From Chitinophagaceae bacterium (GTDB taxonomy: Bacteria; Bacteroidota; Bacteroidia; Chitinophagales; Chitinophagaceae): a stretch of DNA of 64,000 nucleotides. The position numbers were made by a program, and so were the translations under genes. The notes beneath the pieces are model-generated. The model saw only the letters and a program-made list of their open reading frames with translations. It was not told the DNA's origin and ran no database searches. This document shows positions 3,683-63,618 of this stretch, piece by piece (positions within the stretch are counted from its first letter, which is position 1; every line of letters starts with the position of its first letter). The stretch is taken from positions 62,001-126,000 of the forward strand of contig PMSV01000003.1 of assembly GCA_003168265.1 (NCBI GenBank), given 5' to 3'.

Positions 3683-5668
3683 ATGGACCCCCACTTCAAG
3701 AAAGTTACTTCTGCAGGTTTGCTGATTGCCTTAGGCATAATTTATGGGGATATCGGAACCTCCCCCCTTTATACTTTTCAGACCATCATCTCTGATGGAG
3801 GAAAGGTTGATAATGAACTGATATTCGGAGCCCTTTCCTGCGTTTTCTGGACACTCACCCTGCAGACCACGTTCAAATATGTAGTGATCACGCTGAATGC
3901 GGATAACCATGGCGAAGGAGGCGTTTTTTCCCTCTATGCGCTGGTGCGACGATATGGAAAGAACCTCGTCTACCCTGCCATTATCGGAGCCGGGACCTTA
4001 CTGGCTGATGGCATCATCACTCCTCCCATTTCAGTCACTTCGGCCATCGAAGGACTTACCATGGTTAAGGGCTTTGAGAAGATCATCGTTCCCGGAAATC
4101 ATCTCGTGATGGAAATCGTTCTCGTAATTCTCCTGCTCCTATTCCTATTCCAACGATTTGGAACAAAGGTTGTGGGAGGCTCTTTCGGACCGATCATGCT
4201 AATCTGGTTTACCATGCTTGGAGTATTGGGTACCGGCCAGATTTTGCATAACCCGGTTATTTTCAAGGCACTCAATCCGATTTACGGGTTCAGGTTATTG
4301 ACCCATCATCCTCGTGGATTTTGGCTGCTCGGTGCGGTTTTCCTCTGTACGACCGGGGCCGAGGCTCTTTATTCGGATCTGGGGCATTGCGGGAAAAGCA
4401 ATATCCGCGTTAGCTGGGTCTTTGTAAAGACCACACTTGTGCTCAATTACCTGGGACAAGGAGCATGGGCACTTGCCCATGCCAAGGATAACCTGAATGG
4501 CATCAATCCTTTTTTTGCGATCGTTCCGGACTGGTTCCTGCTTCCCTGTATATTGATTGCCACGCTGGCTTCCATCATTGCAAGCCAATCCCTGATCAGC
4601 GGTTCCTTCACCCTGATCAGTGAAGCCATCAGCCTGGGATTCTGGCCGAGGATCAAGACCAAGTACCCAACCGATATCAGGGGGCAGATCTATATTCCAA
4701 GCATCAACTGGATCCTTTTTATCGGCTGCGTGCTTGTAGTGCTTTATTTCAGGACAAGCGAAGCGATGACGGCCGCCTATGGCTTTTCTATTACTGTAGC
4801 CATGCTCATGACGACCCTGCTCATGTACTATTTCCTCCGCTATGTCAAACATTATCCGATATGGCTCGTGACGACCATCCTCGTTGTATTCTTATGCGTT
4901 GAGACAAGCTTTTTTGTCGCTAATGCAGTGAAGCTCCTGAAACGGCTCTTCTTCCTGGTATTTGAATTCGGACTGATCACTACAATGTATATATGGTACA
5001 ATGCCAGGAAGATCACTTTGAAGATGCTCCATTTTGTGCCCATAAAGGATTATTTGCCTTCCATTGAGAAACTAATCGAAGACGAGGCTGTTCCCCGTTA
5101 TGCCACCCATGTAGTTTACCTCACCAAAATGCAAAGCCATAGCCAGGTGGAAAAAAGGATCATGGACTCCATTTTCGCCAACCCCGTCAAAAAAGCCGAT
5201 GTCTACTGGCTGATCAATTTCAACCGCCCCGATGATCCCTATACGGCAGAATATGATGTGGAGGAGATCGTAAAAGACAAGATTATTCGTGTGGATTTTT
5301 CTCTGGGATTCAGGATACAGCCGAGGATCGGGATCATGCTTAAGAAAGTCGCCGAAGAAATGATTAGTAAAAAGGAAATAGCTATCAACAGCCATTTCTC
5401 CTATATCAATACTCATGGCCTGAAGGATTTTAAATTCATCATATTGGAAAGATTTCTTTCCTATGACAATGTATTTTCCAACAGAGAGAGCTTTATATTG
5501 AACAGTTATTTTTCCCTGCTAAAATTCGCCCGCTCCGACAGTGAGGCTTACGGGATCGATATCGATCAGGCGGTATTCGAACATGTGCCGCTGGTCGTTA
5601 CGCCGATCACCACCCTTGTTTTGAAAAGAAGCTCTTATAAAGTGGATAAGAAGGAAGATTTTTTATAG
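3683..5668 (+). CDS. kup: Kup-type low-affinity potassium uptake transporter
   Basis: 661 residues, the normal length for Kup. The N-terminus carries the family signature IYGDIGTSPLYTF (residues 20-32), followed by about 12 membrane segments and a C-terminal cytosolic region of about 200 residues. It imports potassium, probably with protons, across the inner membrane. The ATG at 3683 directly precedes the first membrane helix. The last 6 bases overlap the end of a convergent pseudogene at 5663-6073. Confidence 0.95.
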   Translation: MDPHFKKVTSAGLLIALGIIYGDIGTSPLYTFQTIISDGGKVDNELIFGALSCVFWTLTLQTTFKYVVITLNADNHGEGGVFSLYALVRRYGKNLVYPAIIGAGTLLADGIITPPISVTSAIEGLTMVKGFEKIIVPGNHLVMEIVLVILLLLFLFQRFGTKVVGGSFGPIMLIWFTMLGVLGTGQILHNPVIFKALNPIYGFRLLTHHPRGFWLLGAVFLCTTGAEALYSDLGHCGKSNIRVSWVFVKTTLVLNYLGQGAWALAHAKDNLNGINPFFAIVPDWFLLPCILIATLASIIASQSLISGSFTLISEAISLGFWPRIKTKYPTDIRGQIYIPSINWILFIGCVLVVLYFRTSEAMTAAYGFSITVAMLMTTLLMYYFLRYVKHYPIWLVTTILVVFLCVETSFFVANAVKLLKRLFFLVFEFGLITTMYIWYNARKITLKMLHFVPIKDYLPSIEKLIEDEAVPRYATHVVYLTKMQSHSQVEKRIMDSIFANPVKKADVYWLINFNRPDDPYTAEYDVEEIVKDKIIRVDFSLGFRIQPRIGIMLKKVAEEMISKKEIAINSHFSYINTHGLKDFKFIILERFLSYDNVFSNRESFILNSYFSLLKFARSDSEAYGIDIDQAVFEHVPLVVTPITTLVLKRSSYKVDKKEDFL

Positions 5669-44007: not shown

Positions 44008-44073
44008 AACAGTCCCGATTAGGGAGTGCAAATATAACGTTATGCCTTCAAATCATTACATTTGTGCGCCTCC

Positions 44074-44145
44074 GGCCTCGTAGTACAATGGATAGTATAA
44101 GAGCCTCCGAAGCTCCAGATACAGGTTCGATTCCTGTCGAGGCTA
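44074..44145 (+). tRNA. tRNA-Arg (anticodon CCG)
   Basis: A 72-base cloverleaf: acceptor GGCCTCG/CGAGGCT (first pair G-U), D-stem GTAC/GTAT, anticodon stem AGAGC with loop CTCCGAA (anticodon CCG at 34-36), T-arm ACAGG TTCGATT CCTGT, discriminator A. CCA is not encoded. It reads Arg codon CGG. It sits at the left edge of the genomic island and is a likely integration target or boundary. Confidence 0.93.
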
Positions 44146-44149
44146 CTTC

Positions 44150-44238: not shown

Positions 44239-45663
44239 TCAATCTAGTGGTTCGATATTGAAATCCGTCAAAAACGAGCTTTTCGGGATATATCGAACCA
44301 ATGATTTGACGTTTCTGTGCAACTGTCCCCTCTTCATCAAAGTATCCAACCTGGATAGATTGCTGACCGTCTGATCTAACAACCCATCAATATTTCTTTC
44401 TGCCTGGGAAGAACCCGCCAGTTTTGCTTCCAGTATGGTAATTTTGTTGGTACAATCCAACTTCAATTCCCGGTAATCTTCCGGGTCAAGTTTCTGATCG
44501 GCGACCAACTCTCTTGCATTTCTTAGCCGGATACCCAGGTCGTCTATTTGCGAAATGATTTGCTTTCTATCACTTTGTTGGCTGCGGGTTTGTTCGTTGT
44601 AAGATTCTTTTAGTGTGACAACATATATGTCACTCATGCCCGGCTTAGGTACATATTTTCTTAGCTCCCGCACAAAAAGACTATTGGCATTTTCCGTCCT
44701 AAACCTGCAACCACAGGAAGAAACACAGTGATAATAATAGTAATGATTGTAGCGGCCTTTTGATGCACTACCGGTTAACATCCGGCCACATTTGGGACAA
44801 ATAAGAAAACCACGCAACGGCATCTGTTCATCTACTGTTATCTGTGTAGCGGGTCTCTCCTTTCTTTTTCTTCCCAACAAAACATCCTGCACTTCATAAA
44901 AAAGTGCTTCGGATATAATGGCTTCGTGTTGGCCTTGTACTGCGGTTGATTCTTCGTCTTTGTAAGAAGTAACAGGAATTTTTCCGCAATAAACCGGATT
45001 GCGGATAGCATTCCAGAAGTTACTGCGGCTGCATATTAATCCCCGGTTGTTCGCCTCTTTTCTTATCTGGTCAGCAGCGAAATGACCGTTCGCTAATTCC
45101 TGGAATGCCCACTTAATAATGGAGGCTTCCGGTTCTTTTGGCGCAATGTATTTGCGGCCATGGTCATCAGTTTTGTTGATATATCCTACCGGAGCTGTTC
45201 CCATCCAGCGACCTTCTTTCTTTGCCCGGCGCATACCAAAGAATACATTTAATGCCCTGCGGTCGTTCTCTACTTCAGGAGCAGCCAGATAAAATGCCAA
45301 CATCATTTTATTTTCGGGAATGGATAAATCCAGAGGCTGTTCGACTGCCTGCGGTTCTATGCCGAGTTTGCGAAGGGTATTAATCATCTGGTATGCATCA
45401 CCAGCGTTGCGGCTAAACCTATCCCATTTGGTGAAAAGCAAAAGCTCTGATTTTCCCCGCCTTTTCTTTAAATCCAACAACAGTTCATTCCACTTTGGGC
45501 GATTAAATGTCTTGGCAGAATGATCTTCGTAAATCACTCTCCGCACTTGAAGCCCATTGATCTGGCAATACTTCTGTAAAGTTTCTTCCTGGTTTCTTTG
45601 GGAATAGCCTTTATCTGCCTGTTCATCGGTACTTACCCGGATATATAAATCTGCTGTTTTCAT
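44239..45663 (-). CDS. Large serine recombinase / site-specific integrase
   Basis: 474 residues from the ATG at 45663 (MKTADLYIRVSTDEQ); ATG 45669 and TTG 45672 are alternatives. Resolvase domain with catalytic Ser11 in RVSTDEQ, KWDRFSRNAGDAY, then a Recombinase domain (about 155-270), a zinc ribbon (CPKCGRM then CVSSCGCRF) and a coiled-coil C-terminus. Such enzymes integrate and excise mobile elements without host factors. It is read towards the tRNA, so the left attachment site should lie between 44145 and 44239. Confidence 0.92.
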   Translation of the reverse strand: MKTADLYIRVSTDEQADKGYSQRNQEETLQKYCQINGLQVRRVIYEDHSAKTFNRPKWNELLLDLKKRRGKSELLLFTKWDRFSRNAGDAYQMINTLRKLGIEPQAVEQPLDLSIPENKMMLAFYLAAPEVENDRRALNVFFGMRRAKKEGRWMGTAPVGYINKTDDHGRKYIAPKEPEASIIKWAFQELANGHFAADQIRKEANNRGLICSRSNFWNAIRNPVYCGKIPVTSYKDEESTAVQGQHEAIISEALFYEVQDVLLGRKRKERPATQITVDEQMPLRGFLICPKCGRMLTGSASKGRYNHYYYYHCVSSCGCRFRTENANSLFVRELRKYVPKPGMSDIYVVTLKESYNEQTRSQQSDRKQIISQIDDLGIRLRNARELVADQKLDPEDYRELKLDCTNKITILEAKLAGSSQAERNIDGLLDQTVSNLSRLDTLMKRGQLHRNVKSLVRYIPKSSFLTDFNIEPLD

Positions 45664-45707
45664 CCGCATCAATTTTTATTTGATTTTGGCAAGACGAAGA
45701 ATCCACT

Positions 45708-47305: not shown

Positions 47306-48175
47306 TTAGGTGTTTACAACGCTGTTACGATGAAGCTTGGCTTTTCCAACATCCGATAATATTTCATGGATGCATCTCACCTTTTCCGTGAGGCATAAGA
47401 GATCGTCATTGCTAATTTTATAATCTTCTTTATACCGGGTGTCTATATATGCTTTTTGCAGAAGGTTAAAAAACCGCTTGTCTTCTTCTGTTTTTTGCGG
47501 GAAAATATCAGGTAGTTGATAAGATACCAGCCCTGCATAACGCAGTAGCCTGTCAATACTGTGGGTATTGGCATGGTAACCTGTACCCACTTTCAACAAA
47601 GTACGCAAAGCCTGCTCTGCCGATTGATGCAACATGAAGGCTGCCATGGAGTGTTGTTTTCTGATTCTATACAGTTCCGACCCGGCCAGGAACTCTTTCG
47701 CCTTTGTTAACCCTTCCGTCAAACACTTTTCAATTGTAATAATTGCAGCATCATGATTAGCAATTTGTGAAAGAGGTAAATTGTAATTACCGGAATTATA
47801 GATGACTACCGCCGATTGCTGTACGTTTATTGCAAATGGATTCCCTTCTCTCAGCCATTCTTCAAAAGTGCTTTTTTGTAATACGAGGGTAGTTACTGGT
47901 ATAAATGCTTTGCAATGGCTTTCTATCTTATCCTGCCACTCATGCAGTTCCTTATTGGCGAGACTCTCCATCAGGATCAACAGAAAATAATCCGCCATAT
48001 GCTGTGAAGCGGGAGCCGATTGTTGAAATATGCTTTCGCTTCTTCTCCGATATAAAGAAGCACCCAACAAAAAGATCATCTCTGGATTAGCCGCTTTTAC
48101 TATTATATCAACCAAGCGCTGCTGATTTGACAAATAGGCATCCTTGCTAAAATGGTATATCGTAAACGGGTTCAT
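47306..48175 (-). CDS. HEPN-domain protein with degenerate nucleotidyltransferase-like N-terminus
   Basis: 289 residues. The C-terminal half is a HEPN domain (QHSMAAFMLHQSAEQALRTL, HSIDRLLRYAG, AYIDTRYKEDYKI). The N-terminal half follows an MNT-like order: a helix, FLLGASLYRR in place of GSxARG, and ADYFLLILM in place of the DxD strand, with the second Asp missing. The usual HEPN RX4-6H motif is not seen in the last helix. MNT-HEPN pairs are toxin-antitoxin or defence modules; this fused, partly degenerate form may be regulatory. Preceded by leader repeat copy 5. Confidence 0.65.
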   Translation of the reverse strand: MNPFTIYHFSKDAYLSNQQRLVDIIVKAANPEMIFLLGASLYRRRSESIFQQSAPASQHMADYFLLILMESLANKELHEWQDKIESHCKAFIPVTTLVLQKSTFEEWLREGNPFAINVQQSAVVIYNSGNYNLPLSQIANHDAAIITIEKCLTEGLTKAKEFLAGSELYRIRKQHSMAAFMLHQSAEQALRTLLKVGTGYHANTHSIDRLLRYAGLVSYQLPDIFPQKTEEDKRFFNLLQKAYIDTRYKEDYKISNDDLLCLTEKVRCIHEILSDVGKAKLHRNSVVNT

Positions 48176-53117: not shown

Positions 53118-56100
53118 ATTCCATTGGTCAAATAGAACGGGCTACACAAAACCGGGTAGTGCAGTTGTTTAAAACACAATTACAGTACCGCTATTTGGGT
53201 AATTGGGAAGAAAGGGGCGGTAGCAATATTGAAGAAGATTTGTTGCGCAGCTACTTGCTTCAACACTATGATGCAACTTTGGTGGACAAAGCCATTTATG
53301 AACTTACAAAAACTGCCGGCGACCAGAGCAAAACCCTCTACGAGGTAAACAAAGCGGTATATGGCTTATTACGTTACGGCGTAAAAATTAAACCAGAAGC
53401 CGGAGCCAATACCGAAACCATTGAACTGATTAACTGGAAAGAATGGGTTAAAAATGATTTTTCCGTTGCGGAAGAAGTAACCGTAAAAGGCGAAAACACC
53501 AAACGTCCCGATATTGTTTTATACATCAATGGAATTGCCATTAGTGTTTTGGAATTAAAACGCAGCACCATCTCTATTTCAGAAGGTATCCGTCAGAATT
53601 TGGATAACCAGTCTCCAAAATTTATTGAACGTTTTTTTACAACCGTTCAGTTAGTAATGGCAGGCAATGATACCGAAGGGTTGAAATACGGCTGTATTGA
53701 AACCAAAGAGAAATATTACCTGCAATGGAAAGAGGACAGTGAAGAAGAAAATGTATTAAATAAAGGCGTCGTGCATTTATGCAACAAGCAACACCTGCTT
53801 GAAATGGTTTATGACTTTATTGTATTTGACAGAGGACAGAAAAAATATTGCAGGCACAACCAGTACTTCGGTTGCAAAGCCGCACAGGAACATATACGTA
53901 AAAGAGAAGGCGGCATCATCTGGCATACACAAGGCAGCGGAAAAAGCCTTACGATGGTCTGGCTCACCCGCTGGATAAAAGAAAATATTACCGGCAGCCG
54001 TGTTTTGATTATTACTGACCGGGAGGAACTAGACGGACAGATTGAGAAAGTATATAACGGTGTAGGTGAAAAAATTGTACGCACCACCAGCGGAAAAGAC
54101 TTGATTGAAAAACTCAATGCCACTACGCCCTGGTTGTTGTGTTCTCTTATTCACAAGTTTGGCAGAAAGGAAGAAGGTGATGTGGAGGAATATGTGCAGC
54201 AGATACGACAAAGCTTGCCATCAGATTTTAAAGCTAAAGGGGATATTTATGTGTTTGTGGACGAGTGTCACCGAACCCAAAGCGGCAAGCTCCACACAGC
54301 CATGAAAAAGATTTTACCAAATGCTTTATTTATTGGCTTTACCGGCACTCCATTGTTGAAAAAAGATAAGGAAAGCAGCATGGAAGTATTTGGCAAGTAT
54401 ATTCATACCTACAAGTTTGATGAAGCGGTAAAAGATAAGGTGGTGCTTGACCTCAGATATGAAGCCCGTAATGTTGATCAACAAATCAATTCTCAGGAAG
54501 GCATTGACAGGTGGTTTAATGCAAAGACAAAAGGACTGAGTGATTTTGCAATCACTGAATTAAAAAAACGCTGGGGAACGCTGCAAAAAGTATTAAGTAG
54601 TCGTACCAGGATAGCAAGAATTGTAGCAGATATATTGCTGGATATGGAGGAAAGGGAAAGGCTGCAAAACGGCCGGGGCAATGCCATATTAGTGGCGGGC
54701 AGTATTTTCCAGGCATGCAGGTATTATGAACTCTTCCAGGAAGCTGGCTTTACCAAATGTGCGATCATTACTTCATACAATCCATCCATTTCAGATATAA
54801 AAGGCGAAACCGTGGTGGAAGAAGCTGACACAGAAAATGTTTTCAAGTACGACACCTACCTAAAAATGCTCAATGGCAAAAAACCGGAGGATTTTGAAGA
54901 GGAAGTAAAGAAAAAATTTGTGGATGAACCGGCGCAAATGAAGCTGCTGATTGTGGTGGATAAACTGCTTACCGGTTTCGATGCACCTCCGGCCACTTAC
55001 CTATACATTGACAGCAGTATGCAGGACCACGGTTTGTTTCAGGCAATATGCAGAGTAAACCGTTTGGATGGTGATGATAAGGAATACGGCTATATCGTTG
55101 ACTATAAGGATTTGTTTAAGAGAATGGAAAAAGCAGTGGATGATTATACTTCCGGCGCTTTCGATGGCTATGAACAGGAAGATGTACAGGGCTTAATGAA
55201 TGACCGCTTGCAAAAAGGAAAAGAAAGATTAGATGAATGTTTGGAAAGCATCAAGGCTTTGGTAGAATCTATCAGTAATGTAAAAGATTCATTTACCTGC
55301 ATCCGCTATTTCTGCGGCAACCCTGAAAATGCAGATGACCTGAAAGAAACAGAGCAAAAGCGGATTGCTTTATACAAACATACTGTTGCATTGATAAGGG
55401 CTTACGCCAATATTGCCAATGAAATGGAAGAAGCAGGTTATTCCAAAACAGAAATCGAACAAATAAAAGATGATGTAAAGTTTTTTGAAAATCTACGGCA
55501 GGAAATAAAAATTGCCAGTCGGGATTATATTGACCTGAAACAGTATGAACCTGCAATGCGGCATTTGATTGATACTTACATCAGTGCGGGAGAAAGTAAA
55601 GTGGTTTCAGCTTTCGACGATTTCACCTTGTTGGAACTGATTGTTGAGAGCGGCCTTGAAAAGGCAACAGAAAATTTACCTGATGGCATCCGAAGGAATA
55701 AAGAAGCAATGGCAGAAACCATTGAAAACAATATCCGCCGGTTGATTATAGATGAAATGCCTACCAATCCAAAGTATTATGAAAAAATGTCTGTATTGCT
55801 GGGTGAGTTAATACAATCAAGAAAAGAAGAAGCAAAAGAATACAAGAAGTATTTGGACAAGCTAGTTGACCTAATAAAAAGAGTAATTAAGCCAGAAACG
55901 TCAAAAGATTATCCCAAAACATTGAACACAAAAGCCAAAAGGGCTTTGTTTGATAACCTGAAGCGCAATGAACAATTAGCCCTGGAAATTGATGCAGCTA
56001 TTATCGCGGTTAAAAAAGATGATTGGCGGGGTAATAAGCAAAAGGAAAGAGAAATAAAAATTGCAATTGTTGAACTGATAGAAGATGAAGCATTGGCAGC

Positions 56101-56143
56101 AACAATTTTTGATATTGTGGAAAAGCAAACACAGGACTATTGA
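53114..56143 (+). CDS. hsdR: Type I restriction endonuclease subunit HsdR
   Basis: 1009 residues. The N-terminal nuclease has RPDIVLYI (131-138) and LELK (146-149), the PD-(D/E)XK residues; the SF2 translocase has Walker A QGSGKS (273-278), DECH (383-386) and GFTGTPLL, followed by DKLLTGFDAP and ICRVNRLDGDDKEYG. The C-terminal helical region binds the methylase core. It translocates and cuts unmodified DNA. All motifs are intact, so the system appears functional. The protease gene begins 1 base after its stop. Confidence 0.95.
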   Translation: MNSIGQIERATQNRVVQLFKTQLQYRYLGNWEERGGSNIEEDLLRSYLLQHYDATLVDKAIYELTKTAGDQSKTLYEVNKAVYGLLRYGVKIKPEAGANTETIELINWKEWVKNDFSVAEEVTVKGENTKRPDIVLYINGIAISVLELKRSTISISEGIRQNLDNQSPKFIERFFTTVQLVMAGNDTEGLKYGCIETKEKYYLQWKEDSEEENVLNKGVVHLCNKQHLLEMVYDFIVFDRGQKKYCRHNQYFGCKAAQEHIRKREGGIIWHTQGSGKSLTMVWLTRWIKENITGSRVLIITDREELDGQIEKVYNGVGEKIVRTTSGKDLIEKLNATTPWLLCSLIHKFGRKEEGDVEEYVQQIRQSLPSDFKAKGDIYVFVDECHRTQSGKLHTAMKKILPNALFIGFTGTPLLKKDKESSMEVFGKYIHTYKFDEAVKDKVVLDLRYEARNVDQQINSQEGIDRWFNAKTKGLSDFAITELKKRWGTLQKVLSSRTRIARIVADILLDMEERERLQNGRGNAILVAGSIFQACRYYELFQEAGFTKCAIITSYNPSISDIKGETVVEEADTENVFKYDTYLKMLNGKKPEDFEEEVKKKFVDEPAQMKLLIVVDKLLTGFDAPPATYLYIDSSMQDHGLFQAICRVNRLDGDDKEYGYIVDYKDLFKRMEKAVDDYTSGAFDGYEQEDVQGLMNDRLQKGKERLDECLESIKALVESISNVKDSFTCIRYFCGNPENADDLKETEQKRIALYKHTVALIRAYANIANEMEEAGYSKTEIEQIKDDVKFFENLRQEIKIASRDYIDLKQYEPAMRHLIDTYISAGESKVVSAFDDFTLLELIVESGLEKATENLPDGIRRNKEAMAETIENNIRRLIIDEMPTNPKYYEKMSVLLGELIQSRKEEAKEYKKYLDKLVDLIKRVIKPETSKDYPKTLNTKAKRALFDNLKRNEQLALEIDAAIIAVKKDDWRGNKQKEREIKIAIVELIEDEALAATIFDIVEKQTQDY

Positions 56144-56144
56144 A

Positions 56145-56858
56145 ATGAGGCAAATAACTGTAAGCAATATTGAAATTGATGTGGAAAAGAAGGCGATAAA
56201 AAATCTTCACTTGGGCGTGTACCCACCCAACGGCAGGGTACGCATTGCTGCACCATTGAGAGTAAATGATGAATCAATACGTTTATTTGCTATTTCAAAA
56301 CTAAGCTGGATAAAAAAACAGCAACGCAGTTTTGCAGCACAGGAAAGAGAGACAGAGAGGGAGTTTATTTCAGGCGAAAGCCATTACTTCAATGGCAGGC
56401 GTTATTTAATGAATATTATTCCCACCACTGGTAAAGCAACAGTTGTATTGCGGTATAAGTATATTGACCTATATGTAAAGCCCGGCAGCAGCCGAAAACA
56501 TAAAGCATCAGTAGTTGCAAAATTTTACAGGAATTATCTGAACGAACAAATACCTCCTTTGCTTGCGAAGTGGGAAAAGAAAATGAAGGTGAAAGTTAAT
56601 GAATATTGGATAAAGCAGATGAAGACTAAATGGGGTACTTGCAATATTGAGGTTAAACGAATTTGGGTAAATCTTGAATTGGCTAAAAAACCTTTACCGT
56701 GTTTGGAATACATTGTGGTGCATGAAATGGTTCACTTGTTAGAGAGACATCATAACGACACGTTTGTAGCTTACATAGATAAATTCTTACCTCGATGGAA
56801 AACACTGAAAAGTGAGCTAAATAAATCACCTGTTAGCCACGTTGATTGGGAGTATTGA
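56145..56858 (+). CDS. YgjP/M48-like zinc metallopeptidase of the R-M operon
   Basis: 237 residues from the ATG at 56145, 1 base after the hsdR stop. The zincin motif HEMVH (193-197) with a downstream His in RHHND and the KTKWGTCN segment (160-167) define the YgjP-like (DUF45) family. These cytosolic putative proteases are often found beside type I hsdR genes. It may control levels of the restriction subunit, as ClpXP does in E. coli, but that is inference. Confidence 0.87.
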   Translation: MRQITVSNIEIDVEKKAIKNLHLGVYPPNGRVRIAAPLRVNDESIRLFAISKLSWIKKQQRSFAAQERETEREFISGESHYFNGRRYLMNIIPTTGKATVVLRYKYIDLYVKPGSSRKHKASVVAKFYRNYLNEQIPPLLAKWEKKMKVKVNEYWIKQMKTKWGTCNIEVKRIWVNLELAKKPLPCLEYIVVHEMVHLLERHHNDTFVAYIDKFLPRWKTLKSELNKSPVSHVDWEY

Positions 56859-56969: not shown

Positions 56970-57209
56970 ATGCAAGAAAAAAAGAAAATACGGGCAGTAT
57001 TCAAAGAAGAACTACAAAATCTTTTGTTGTCTTTAAATGAAATTGAACCTATTAATAATGGAGAGAGAATGTGTATTGTCTGTTCTAAAGTTATCACCTT
57101 GGAAAATATTCAATTGCTAATTCCTCGTTCTGGAAATAGTATCGAATATGTATGCGACAGTCCAACTTGCGTTGAAGCATACAATCGCAAAAAAGAGACT
57201 AAACCATGA
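56970..57209 (+). CDS. Small zinc-finger-like protein, partner of the membrane S1-array protein
   Basis: 79 residues: a basic N-terminal helix (MQEKKKIRAVFKEELQNLLL), then CIVC (Cys35, Cys38) and CDSPTC (Cys62, Cys67), a four-cysteine zinc knuckle. No family recognised. Its stop overlaps the start of the 850-residue gene by 4 bases, so the two are translated as a unit. The preceding 111 bases (56859-56969) have no gene and may hold its promoter. Confidence 0.7.
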   Translation: MQEKKKIRAVFKEELQNLLLSLNEIEPINNGERMCIVCSKVITLENIQLLIPRSGNSIEYVCDSPTCVEAYNRKKETKP

Positions 57210-59758
57210 ATAAATTAGTTGAAACAATTCTTATTTACATTCCCTTATCTCTACTTCTAATTTTAGCAGGTATTTTTTTAGGCGGAGAAGTATGGGCAAA
57301 AGGAAAAACTGTATTAGGTGACATTCTGAAATTTTTTGGATGGGCTGGAAAAAGTGTAAGAAAATTAAGTGTAAAAAGCGAATATGAAGGAACAATTAAT
57401 TCAATTATTCAGGATTATAATAAAAACTTTGAAAGCCCGATTCTACACTCTTGCAAAATAGAATGGGTCACTTCTGGCAATCAGCAAAATATATTAAAAG
57501 AAAATGAGGCGATAATATGTTTAAGTTTTGACAAAAAAGACCATAACCTTAACTTTTATAATGCTATTTTGAATTTTGTTCAAACCGCTGTAATTGCGAA
57601 AGCAAAAGACTACTTAGCCAAGCATTCCTCAAAGGCAATTGATCTTCTTACTACCCATATTATTCTTAGGAATAACAGAAAGGAGGTTCTTACAACATTT
57701 AGAAAAAAGCTGCTTGATTTTGACGATGCAACAAAACGAGAGTTTGAAGAACTTGCTCCAACAAACGATAGAGGGTTATTCTTGCATATTCTACTGCCTG
57801 AATTTCACTATTATGGAGAACTTATTGATACTCTTCCTCCAAATTCGGAGTATAATACTGAGGCAAATGGATTGCTGCATTGGTTTAAAGAATTGGCAAC
57901 AAGGGAATTTGATGAAAGAACAAATCTTAAGTATGTAACAAAGAATTTAAAGGTTGGGGTTATACTTGTTGGAAAAGATGAAACTTGGGATACACAAGGT
58001 GCAGCAGCTTATACCAAATGGGCCGATTATTATTCAACCGAAAATTATAATTCTGTTTATGTTCTGGCTAGGGGAAGTAATGGTTATGAGAGGGCAACAA
58101 TCGTAACAAAAATTCTGACGCATTCAAAGGGGTTTGACCAGATAAATAAAAATCCGAAAATAAAATGTGTTTCAGTAGATGGCAAAGAATACGTTGTAAC
58201 CTGTTACTCATTACGACCAAACAAAGCAACTATAGCATACTTGGCTTGGGAAAATTTGAAGGAGTGTTACACGGAAAGCAAAGTTGTTCCAGCAATTGTT
58301 GATAGTGTTCAAAAGGAAAATATCGTTGTCAATGCTTTCGGATTAAAATTTGAAATGCCCAATAGTTTGCTTTCTGAAATTGAAATTTCCGATGCGAGAA
58401 GGATTTTTAAATCGGAAGATGAACTATATCTGAATATAACTGAGTTTGATAGTGACAGACAGCATCTAGTTCTTAGTAATCAGGGCACAGTTTCCGATCC
58501 TAAACATTATGTAGATGCCATTTTAAAAAGTAATAAGGTTTATTCTTGTTTTGTTGAAAAAATACAGACAGATAGATACGGTTGGCAACATGGTTTGAAA
58601 GTGTCAAATCCTGAATTAAAATCGTGGATATACATTCCTAAGTCCAATCTAACTGCAAGCCGATTTTTAGACCTAAATACAAAGTATCCTAAAGGAACTG
58701 AACTTAATGTGGTCATAGAAAAATATAATTCAAGTGCTGCAAATTTTGTCGGTTCGTTGGAATTGTTAGTAAATCCTTGGGAGACAGATTTAGCCAAACG
58801 ATTGCAAGCAGGAGATTCGATGACTGTAGTAGTTAAACAGATTAATGAGTTTTCGGTTATATGCGAAATAGAAGAAGGCTTAGAGTGTGGTTTTGCACGT
58901 CAGGAAATTTCTTGGAAACCGGAAGATTGTAACACTTCTAAGTTTAAGGTTGACGACGAAGTAGATGTTAAAATCCTATCAGTTGATATTGATAGAAGAA
59001 GGATTGATGTTTCAATTAAGCGATTGAATAAAACTCCTGAACTTGAATATTACGATGCTAATTTCAACAAAATCGCAGATGTGGAAATAGCATGGGTGGT
59101 ACCAGATAAGGGCATTGCTGTTAGATATCCAGGAAGCAAAAATACTGGATTCATTCATTGGTTTGAAATAGTTTGGGGTTCTGTTGGAAGATTTGAATTA
59201 CTATATAAGCCCGGAGATAAAATAAAGGCACTTGTTTCAGAATTTGACGCTGAAAAAAATACTGTTAAATTCAGCATTAAAAGAAGATATATTCATCAAT
59301 TTGAAAACTGGTCAGCAGTAATTGATGAAAACGATCCCATAGAAGGCAAAGTGATTGGCTATTTTGAAAATAGTGTGCAGATTGAGCTATCGAAGAATGG
59401 ATATACAGTGCAAGCATTTATCCTAAGAAAACATATTTCTAATTATGCGTTTATTGAAAAGGATGATTTGACATTTTATTTACCAATAGGTGAATATTTC
59501 CATTTTTATATTTTAGAAATAAATGAAGACAGGAAAACTGTTTCTTTAACAAGAACGGAATATTTGGAGGCACAAGAAGCACCGGAATATGGTGATAAGG
59601 TTGGAGTTGTGTATGTTAAAGAAAACAGCCATAAGGGATATTTTTATTCTAATGAATTAGAAGGCTGGACAAATGTCCCAGAGAAAAATATCCATCTTGG
59701 TTCGAGAATAGAAGTCATTTCTGTTTCACACTCTACAGGGGAGTATGAAATAATTTAA
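57206..59758 (+). CDS. Membrane-anchored protein with an array of S1/OB-like repeats
   Basis: 850 residues. One membrane helix at 7-28, a cytosolic domain at about 60-350 of no recognised fold, then five or six consecutive S1/OB-like modules: about 360-425, 440-520, 523-607 (the clearest, LAKRLQAGDSMTVVVKQINE to VDVKILSVDIDRRRIDVSIK), 620-693, 699-785 and 795-845. Ribosomal protein S1 has a similar array but no membrane anchor. It may hold or sense RNA or ribosomes at the inner membrane. The gene is AT-rich (18 of 60 bases G+C in the line at 57541), suggesting transfer. Function unknown; defence is likely from context. Confidence 0.6.
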   Translation: MNKLVETILIYIPLSLLLILAGIFLGGEVWAKGKTVLGDILKFFGWAGKSVRKLSVKSEYEGTINSIIQDYNKNFESPILHSCKIEWVTSGNQQNILKENEAIICLSFDKKDHNLNFYNAILNFVQTAVIAKAKDYLAKHSSKAIDLLTTHIILRNNRKEVLTTFRKKLLDFDDATKREFEELAPTNDRGLFLHILLPEFHYYGELIDTLPPNSEYNTEANGLLHWFKELATREFDERTNLKYVTKNLKVGVILVGKDETWDTQGAAAYTKWADYYSTENYNSVYVLARGSNGYERATIVTKILTHSKGFDQINKNPKIKCVSVDGKEYVVTCYSLRPNKATIAYLAWENLKECYTESKVVPAIVDSVQKENIVVNAFGLKFEMPNSLLSEIEISDARRIFKSEDELYLNITEFDSDRQHLVLSNQGTVSDPKHYVDAILKSNKVYSCFVEKIQTDRYGWQHGLKVSNPELKSWIYIPKSNLTASRFLDLNTKYPKGTELNVVIEKYNSSAANFVGSLELLVNPWETDLAKRLQAGDSMTVVVKQINEFSVICEIEEGLECGFARQEISWKPEDCNTSKFKVDDEVDVKILSVDIDRRRIDVSIKRLNKTPELEYYDANFNKIADVEIAWVVPDKGIAVRYPGSKNTGFIHWFEIVWGSVGRFELLYKPGDKIKALVSEFDAEKNTVKFSIKRRYIHQFENWSAVIDENDPIEGKVIGYFENSVQIELSKNGYTVQAFILRKHISNYAFIEKDDLTFYLPIGEYFHFYILEINEDRKTVSLTRTEYLEAQEAPEYGDKVGVVYVKENSHKGYFYSNELEGWTNVPEKNIHLGSRIEVISVSHSTGEYEII

Positions 59759-62478: not shown

Positions 62479-63618
62479 ATGGATCAAGTTATTTTATCTC
62501 GAAAAGAGTTATATGAATTGGTTTGGAAAGAATCTATGTTGTCTCTTTCAAAGCGGTTTGACATATCAGATGTAGGACTCCGAAAGATTTGCCTTAGAAT
62601 GGAAATACCCGTTCCGCCCGCAGGTTATTGGGCAAAAGTTCAATTTGGAAAGAAGGTTAAGCAAGCCAGACTTTCCGCACAGCATAAAGGAGAAGAAACT
62701 GTTCAACTGCAATTTAGAGATGAAAATAGTGCTACTTCAAAAAGCAATTCAGCCAGATCAACCAAAATTTTTGAAGTAGAAAATGACAGTAAACTTATCC
62801 TTCAGGTTCCTGAGAAATTGGTAAAGCCGGACCCACTTGTTTTGTCATCAAAAGGTATTCTTTCTAAACAGAAACCAGATACTTACAACTACATAGGAAC
62901 TGTTTCCAGCAGCTATGAGGCGCTGGATGTCAGGGTCGCTCAGGATAATATAGAACGAGCACTCATCTTCTTTGATACATTAATCAAGAGTCTTAAAGCC
63001 CGGGGACATTCTGTAGAAATCAAAAATCGGAAGACTTTGGCGATTGTTAAAGGACATGATTTTGAAATGTTTCTCCGGGAAAAGATGAGAAAAGAATCTG
63101 TGCAAGATGGAAACTGGAACAGACAGGTGTTTTATCCAAAAGGGATATTTGCTTTGCAGATTGGGGGATGGTATGGACGAGAATATAAAGATGGAAGTTT
63201 GAAATTGGAGGAACAATTGGCAAAAATTATTGCTGGCCTTGAATTGTCTGCCGAGCAACGTACTCAACAGCAGTTAGAATTTGAAAAAGCCGCAGCGGAA
63301 CGTAAAGAGCGGGAGCGGCTTGCGAAAGAACTGGAAGAAAGAAAGCAGCAAGACCTTCTAAATTTCAGAAAATTATTGACCGACTCAGAAAGATGGCATA
63401 AGGCTGAAAACCTACGCAGGTATATACAAGAGCTGGAAAATAGGGCAGAAAAAAATCAATCGCTATCTGCCGAAAACTTTGAATGGATAGAATGGGCAAA
63501 ACGAAAGGCAGATTGGTATGACCCATTTATAGAAAGCCCAGACGAACTTTTAACGGATGTTAATCGAAACACGTTAGAGCTTCCAAAAAGACCCTATGGT
63601 TATGGGTGGGATTATTAG
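62479..63618 (+). CDS. HTH and coiled-coil protein of unknown function
   Basis: 379 residues. The N-terminus (LSRKELYELVWKESMLSLSK, then RFDISDVGLRKICLRMEIPV, then PPAGYWAK) is a distinctive conserved block I recognise from many unnamed bacterial proteins, with an HTH-like core and a PPxGYWAK turn. The middle (about 130-255) is mixed; residues 255-300 form a charged coiled coil (ERKERERLAKELEERKQQ). It lies 33 bases before the TOTE-like gene on the same strand and is probably its partner. Confidence 0.65.
   Translation: MDQVILSRKELYELVWKESMLSLSKRFDISDVGLRKICLRMEIPVPPAGYWAKVQFGKKVKQARLSAQHKGEETVQLQFRDENSATSKSNSARSTKIFEVENDSKLILQVPEKLVKPDPLVLSSKGILSKQKPDTYNYIGTVSSSYEALDVRVAQDNIERALIFFDTLIKSLKARGHSVEIKNRKTLAIVKGHDFEMFLREKMRKESVQDGNWNRQVFYPKGIFALQIGGWYGREYKDGSLKLEEQLAKIIAGLELSAEQRTQQQLEFEKAAAERKERERLAKELEERKQQDLLNFRKLLTDSERWHKAENLRRYIQELENRAEKNQSLSAENFEWIEWAKRKADWYDPFIESPDELLTDVNRNTLELPKRPYGYGWDY

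Follow-up and report, generated by a model that had tools for sequence, protein, structure and literature searches.

A rare gene pair of a four-cysteine protein and a predicted membrane-anchored partner, with an S1 array in some members: a candidate mobile conflict module

What role could be played by a small four-cysteine protein and, overlapping it, a large protein in which a predicted membrane helix and a domain of no evident family precede a row of S1 modules like those of ribosomal protein bS1? The question is raised by a locus at positions 56970-59758 of a 64,000-nucleotide stretch of Chitinophagaceae DNA (the window), which a first-pass annotation had put forward as a candidate new defence pair. 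Sequence comparison presents the two genes as a rare two-gene unit, carried by Bacteroides, by other genomes of the window's phylum and by a Thermotogota phage. Our tentative reading, to which we give somewhat less than an even chance, is that the two genes represent one form of a two-gene conflict module that is rare, moves horizontally and acts through a membrane-bound effector. The S1 array, which first drew attention to the locus, would be an addition to this module and not its core.

The pair, its family and the conserved core

Both open reading frames and their 4-base overlap were confirmed on the + strand. The first (56970..57209) encodes a protein of 79 residues of the C4 zinc-binding type, the conserved partner; the second (57206..59758) encodes the membrane-anchored protein of 850 residues. 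The AT-rich composition reported earlier was also recovered, with a guanine-plus-cytosine (GC) content of about 0.34 at the pair versus about 0.45 across the window's left half. The homologues in Bacteroides sp. 519 (locus L004) were 66% identical over 849 residues without a gap for the large protein and 64% identical for the small one. By the Nei-Gojobori method, nonsynonymous divergence (Ka) between these two loci was 0.25 for the large and 0.27 for the small gene, with synonymous sites saturated (Ks 2.3 in the S1 part). Since the L004 homologues align with low Ka in both genes, both reading frames behave as real genes under selection.

The family as collected comprises seven loci: the window, L004, L008 (genome G740), L014 (G863), L015 (G871), L034 (G1022) and the phage Marinitoga camini virus 1 (MCV1). 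A scan of GTDB r220 contigs, whose reach is limited to close relatives, returned L004 alone. The distant members were found with profiles (A2, A6 and A7) grown stepwise over whole genomes, the genome samples overlapping. A single-sequence query of the order recovered only the window's own genome (1 of 396). Profile A2 matched 2 of 395 genomes of the phylum (presumably Bacteroidota) and A7 matched 3 of 395 (one false); A6, run on the class of G740, matched 5 of 294 (three real, two false). The order of G863 gave 2 of 98 genomes, the window's class 2 of 287, and the family of G1004, the genome of L004, 1 of 111, which was G1004 itself. The weak profile matches in G779, G864 and G512 (E 1.9e-4 to 7.7e-4) were rejected as false because they overlap genes that by eye look MurG-like, CHAD-like and HisG-like. 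Of 50,697 phage records a single one, MCV1, was found, by the queries from the window (E 2e-6), L014 (1e-5) and L015 (1e-3); the L008 domain query had no match among the phage records. Scans of the viral_contigs set returned no relative, and plasmid searches with the conserved domain none either. The whole 850-residue query did match 23 plasmid records, with the S1 part only in the best 20 of the 23.

The association of the two genes, claimed for the window, held throughout the family. In all seven members the gene immediately upstream, in the same orientation, encodes a protein of 70-103 residues (depending on the start codon) that has C-x2-C and a further pair of cysteines, and the spacing lies between 11 bases of overlap and a gap of 10 bases; each carrier, be it Bacteroides, another genome of the window's phylum or the Thermotogota phage, has its own zinc partner. 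Such a small neighbour precedes the seven family reading frames and none of 91 others, in a list of 98 reading frames of at least 250 residues that includes non-genes and for a pattern defined after the family had been seen; the list was drawn from ten stretches (the window, L004, L007, L008, L014, L015, L023, L024, L034 and L035). Each gene is single-copy in the six genomes or records covered (all except G1022), apart from a weak domain match in G740 (E 0.02).

The small protein had been called a zinc-knuckle protein, and this name could not be kept. A zinc knuckle is of the CCHC type, C-x2-C-x4-H-x4-C, and the invariant residues here are four cysteines, C35, C38, C62 and C67 in the window, spaced C-x2-C-x23-C-x4-C. 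These four and L19 are invariant in the small proteins of all seven members. A treble clef of the TRASH/eL24-like kind was considered with a six-row profile, whose best match in the PDB was eL24, at E 0.1 only. No DNA-binding family matched the small proteins above the cut-offs of Pfam and NCBIfam; the best hit, below cut-off, was the DUF3268 zinc finger for L014 (E 0.009).

The large proteins range from 336 to 850 residues and share their N-terminal part. In the window protein a single transmembrane helix is predicted at residues 8-26 (57227..57283, + strand), in N-out/C-in orientation; this segment had the highest 19-residue hydropathy (2.59), and no other exceeded 1.6. Each of the seven large proteins has a single hydrophobic segment near its N terminus, and the 25 residues behind it carry a net positive charge, a pattern that predicts a cytoplasmic C-terminal part throughout. 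The single helix of the first-pass annotation is accordingly a predicted trait of the whole family. Behind the helix lies a conserved domain (residues 31-343; 57296..58234, + strand) of about 310 residues, described earlier as unplaceable. It stayed so in the libraries searched, with nothing above cut-off in Pfam, NCBIfam or PADLOC, and with chance-level matches only in PHROGs for the seven proteins scanned (those of L014, L015 and L034 left out). Searches of Pfam, PADLOC and NCBIfam linked neither of the two window proteins to an ATPase, GTPase, vWA or peptidase family. Residues N116, G190, E199, E219 and Y285 (plus residue M1) are invariant in the seven conserved domains, and the domains of the distant members are 14-20% identical to that of the window. 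Given this low identity, the relationship therefore rests on profile and BLAST E-values together with the shared partner gene. As judged from these alignments, helix and domain together form the family-defining part.

A few hints for the domain lay below cut-off and were not used: the deaminase toxin family MafB19 for L014 (E 0.04), BsuBI/PstI for L004 (E 0.05), HerA, isolated in one member (E 0.019), and ribosomal protein S6 from the conserved-domain profile (E 0.025). Among viral structures, the best Foldseek match of a low-confidence model of the N-terminal part was BFVD A0A8S5TTG3 (E 0.044, 18% over 354 columns), an uncharacterised phage protein of 346 residues that may be a second phage member.

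The S1 array and its relation to bS1

Five to six S1 modules had been counted in the large protein; four are firm, a fifth is likely and the sixth segment has no S1 support. Six array segments of the window and L004 proteins were scored, with shuffled sequences as controls, against all domains of bS1 from E. coli and from the host. Module M1 (residues 344-432; 58235..58501) aligns with bS1 domain D2, its best partner in all four comparisons (z 8.8-11.8). M2 (440-523; 58523..58774) is a probable divergent S1-like module, judged from its position in the collinear alignment and low-confidence predicted strands (z at most 1.8). M3 (524-611; 58775..59038) is the best Pfam S1 match and is followed by module M4 (612-697; 59039..59296) and by M5 (698-790; 59297..59575), which scored best with bS1 D6 in three of the four comparisons. 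The C-terminal segment M6 (791-850; 59576..59755) is not demonstrably S1 (z at most 3.6, low-confidence model). All lie on the + strand.

The presence of the S1/OB fold, as annotated, had the backing of Pfam, of a phmmer comparison with E. coli bS1 and of Foldseek on a low-confidence model. Pfam S1 matched the whole 850-residue protein at E 1.1e-25 in three stretches, and three modules passed the Pfam cut-off of 22 bits in the genome search; one of the three, at 21.9 bits by itself, did so only with its neighbours counted in. Residues 344-790 aligned end to end with residues 91-526 (D2-D6) of E. coli bS1 in one phmmer alignment (E about 1e-28); it starts at bS1 residue 91 and leaves D1 without a counterpart. 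The register that sets M1-M5 against D2-D6 had the highest mean z in three of the four comparisons; in the remaining one, window against host bS1, it came third with 5.2, behind the registers one earlier (5.6) and one later (5.27). The model of residues 340-850 was of low confidence (predicted local distance difference test, pLDDT, 43) and rich in strands up to about residue 740. Its best PDB match in Foldseek was bS1 (9gut), at E 2.4e-13 over 440 columns with a TM-score of 0.23; the arrangement of bS1 as a whole is therefore not matched by the model. Four firm modules (M1, M3, M4 and M5) and one likely module (M2), mostly in bS1 order and without D1, seems a fair statement of these results.

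The large protein is nevertheless not a bS1. Its likeness is confined to residues 344-790, in the order of D2-D6; in place of D1 it has the membrane helix and the unassigned domain, it reaches 116 bits against the NCBIfam rpsA cut-off of 577, and it carries the predicted anchor at residues 8-26. The missing D1, the rpsA cut-off and the anchor rule out this assignment, and the genome has an ordinary bS1 gene at another place. The protein may still work partly like bS1. In bS1, D1 provides the anchor to the ribosome by binding the 30S subunit, and the replacement of just this domain by a membrane-anchored one is the most suggestive detail of the architecture. In a limited look at the literature we found no description of the pair or of a membrane-tethered bS1-like array, which would be an unusual architecture; the word "transmembrane" is absent from the main text of a census of S1 proteins (PMC11641769).

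S1 modules are present in three of the seven members only: the window, L004 and L008. The other four proteins stop after the conserved domain, with no further Pfam domain above cut-off. Between window and L004, Ka was 0.15 for residues 1-340 and 0.32 for residues 341-849. Because S1 modules occur in only this minority and the N-terminal part is the more constrained, the array appears from these comparisons to be an add-on, and the core to consist of the zinc partner and the membrane-anchored domain. The seven loci are natural variants, of which three bear S1 modules and four do not, and could be used to separate the activity of the core domain from the contribution of the ribosomal-protein tail.

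Proposed function and its alternatives

Five of the seven members (window, L004, L008, L014 and MCV1) lie in a mobile or defence setting, namely an island, a conjugative-element-like locus, the vicinity of an integron integrase, restriction-modification surroundings and a phage, in this order; as the defence proposal had supposed, homologues are thus not found mainly in core loci. A role in some kind of conflict, whether as the module favoured here, as a toxin-antitoxin-like pair or as an exclusion system, is very probable. In the conflict module that we tentatively prefer, the membrane-bound conserved domain would be the effector, acting on the inner side of the cytoplasmic membrane, and the co-translated zinc protein its cognate regulator or trigger partner. 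Where present, the S1 array would exchange the ribosome anchoring of bS1 D1 for membrane anchoring, so that mRNA or 30S subunits captured by the array would be brought together with the effector at the membrane when a phage or a rival element is expressed. As a result, either the cell or the incoming element would be shut down.

Several observations weigh against this proposal. The association with defence and mobile elements is a raw count, and for L015 and L034 a mobile setting is not evident. The AlphaFold2 model of the N-terminal part, made from two sequences, reached a pLDDT of 44 and lends no effector fold or active site; Foldseek with this model gave no match at E <= 0.001. Neither window protein matches any model of PADLOC-DB 2.0.0, and in a PADLOC scan of the conserved domains of six members (window, L004, L008, L014, L015 and MCV1) only HerA appeared, at E 0.019 in one of the six; of the small proteins, that of the window was scanned. 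Judged by eye, the residues of the S1 RNA-binding surface look degenerate in modules M1, M2 and M5 and only partly kept in M3 and M4. With four of the seven members devoid of S1, the RNA or ribosome part cannot be general. Defence function and mechanism alike are inferred from the pairing, the predicted helix, selection, the optional S1 array and the carriers; a toxin-antitoxin-like pair or an exclusion system would suit the situation in the phage equally well.

The first-pass idea of a membrane-tethered RNA or ribosome sensor thus survives only in part: as four of the seven members lack S1 modules, it could apply to the S1-bearing subset only and does not describe the core. A bolder version of the preferred reading, mobile immunity of a new class with a new-fold membrane effector, an obligate zinc partner and S1-grafted forms acting as membrane-tethered translation sensors, we regard as unlikely; in it, the grafted array would bring actively translated mRNA or 30S subunits to the membrane-bound effector in some lineages.

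The alternative that survives best is a toxin-antitoxin-like pair, in which the small zinc protein would neutralise a membrane protein harmful to membrane or translation and the pair would stabilise mobile elements. The small gene comes first and the spacing is tight, the carriers are mobile, and the L014 domain has the below-cut-off match to MafB19. The phage locus also speaks for it. In MCV1 the pair occupies a spot (L007:3660-6309) between the terminase genes and a gene that in MPV1 is annotated as a sigma factor and in MCV1 stays under the Pfam cut-off. MCV2 and MPV1 have the same flanks, with 98.1% identity across 82% of the stretch for MCV2 and 78.5% across 76% for MPV1. In MCV2 the spot (L053:4439-6759) holds a 276-residue gene, whose product has no Pfam match and does not detectably resemble either the large protein of MCV1 or the antitoxin of MPV1. 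In MPV1 the spot (L054:4424-7219) holds an MqsR/SocA-like toxin-antitoxin locus, annotated as putative toxin and putative antitoxin; its domains are MqsR-like (below cut-off, at Pfam E 2.8e-4) and antitoxin-like of the SocA/Panacea kind. Because the spot holds the pair, an unrelated gene or a toxin-antitoxin-like locus across related phages of Marinitoga, a genus of the Thermotogota, comparison of the three points to the pair as exchangeable cargo. The pair thus shares mobile settings, this phage spot and the position of the small gene with MqsRA/Panacea systems; it differs in matching neither family and in its membrane-anchored large partner. Further, 336-850 residues are large for a type II toxin, no toxin or antitoxin family was found above cut-off in any member (Pfam, NCBIfam), and the small proteins match no DNA-binding family. 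We consider this explanation unlikely.

Superinfection exclusion or counter-defence, where the module would serve the carrier phage or conjugative element and block rivals at the membrane, differs from the preferred conflict module mainly in the beneficiary. The variable spot before the terminase genes of MCV1 and the conjugative-element-like locus of L004 would suit it; the position among restriction-modification genes in the window and L014 would not, and we rate it as quite unlikely. RexAB-like exclusion couples a sensor to a membrane effector. The pair resembles it as a phage-borne combination of a soluble partner with a membrane protein, and departs from it in having a single N-terminal helix and not a multi-helix membrane protein.

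A duplicated bS1 that acquired an anchor and acts as a membrane-anchored factor of translation or mRNA localisation, with no conflict role, would account for the alignment of the array with D2-D6. Four members without S1, the rarity, the mobile settings, the faster evolution of the S1 part (Ka 0.32 against 0.15 for the N-terminal part) and the ordinary bS1 gene elsewhere in the genome make it very improbable. Least probable of all is an accessory function outside conflict (e.g. envelope stress or element maintenance) that drifts on mobile elements, which generally carry many unrelated cargo genes: L015 and L034 have no clear defence setting, but the pair sits beside defence genes in the window and L014 and in a toxin-antitoxin spot in MCV1.

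Mobile two-gene modules with a membrane-associated partner are already known, although neither gene here matches a described family in the libraries searched; in line with the first-pass annotation, the pair is filed under no known system. Among described conflict systems, those built on VMAP/vWA offer a parallel: PMC7159879 lists S1-like OB RNA-binding domains among their effector domains, and zinc ribbons and transmembrane segments as recurring in GTPase-centric systems. The likeness lies in the S1-like OB domains; the ATPase, GTPase, vWA and peptidase families have no match in the window proteins.

Genomic settings of the pairs

The left side of the window is conserved in the same-genus genome G1360 up to position 44031; to the right of a tRNA-Arg gene (44074-44146) no gene of the G1360 stretch was matched (97.8 kb compared). 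This tRNA gene marks the left edge of an island and is directly followed by a serine recombinase gene on the opposite strand (44239-45672, - strand). The order continues with a HEPN-domain protein (47306-48175; Pfam E 8e-14, no PADLOC match at E 0.01), the type I restriction-modification genes, a YgjP-like metallopeptidase gene, the pair, an AlbA_2 Schlafen-like gene, Mrr, TOTE and MobA. No second att-like copy of the 14-mers of the tRNA-Arg region was found within the 97.8 kb. The neighbours first listed were as described, except that the YgjP-like gene (56085-56858), which overlaps the end of hsdR, intervenes before the pair, and that the TOTE primase-helicase gene (63652-66663) is present but runs beyond the window. 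Directly before the latter lies a gene for a 379-residue protein (62479-63618), a possible TOTE partner with nothing above the Pfam cut-off and nothing in PADLOC or NCBIfam. The MobA relaxase gene (67406-68404, - strand) lies beyond the window.

In L004, where GC falls to about 0.32, the pair has genes like the tra genes of conjugative transposons on one side and a ParB-like gene on the other; two tyrosine-integrase-like genes lie farther out (translations judged by eye). Directly downstream of the pair, a gene of 315 residues (L004:12608-13555) matches nothing in PADLOC and nothing above the Pfam cut-off.

The S1-bearing pair of L008 is a possible integron cassette. An integron integrase (TIGR02249, 422.5 bits against a cut-off of 265) lies upstream, and by eye two palindrome-like stretches open with an identical 12-mer at 4169 and 4566 (integrase, stretches and pair at L008:3064-5010). 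The attC consensus RYYYAAC was not enriched (18 matches against 13.6 expected), and the DNA fold of 4540-4775, which covers the second stretch only, was no better than shuffled sequences (z -0.83). The contig stops 58 bases past the large gene.

The L034 pair is near a contig end. In L015 a fusion protein of 1056 residues with WD40, GTPase and cyclase parts (L015:9324-12494, genome G871) is encoded directly upstream of the pair; it resembles signalling conflict proteins. The L014 pair directly follows genes for a type II methylase and an MvaI/BcnI-type nuclease, and downstream of it is encoded an AAA_13 protein matching the PADLOC candidate PDC-S06 (E 4.8e-88).

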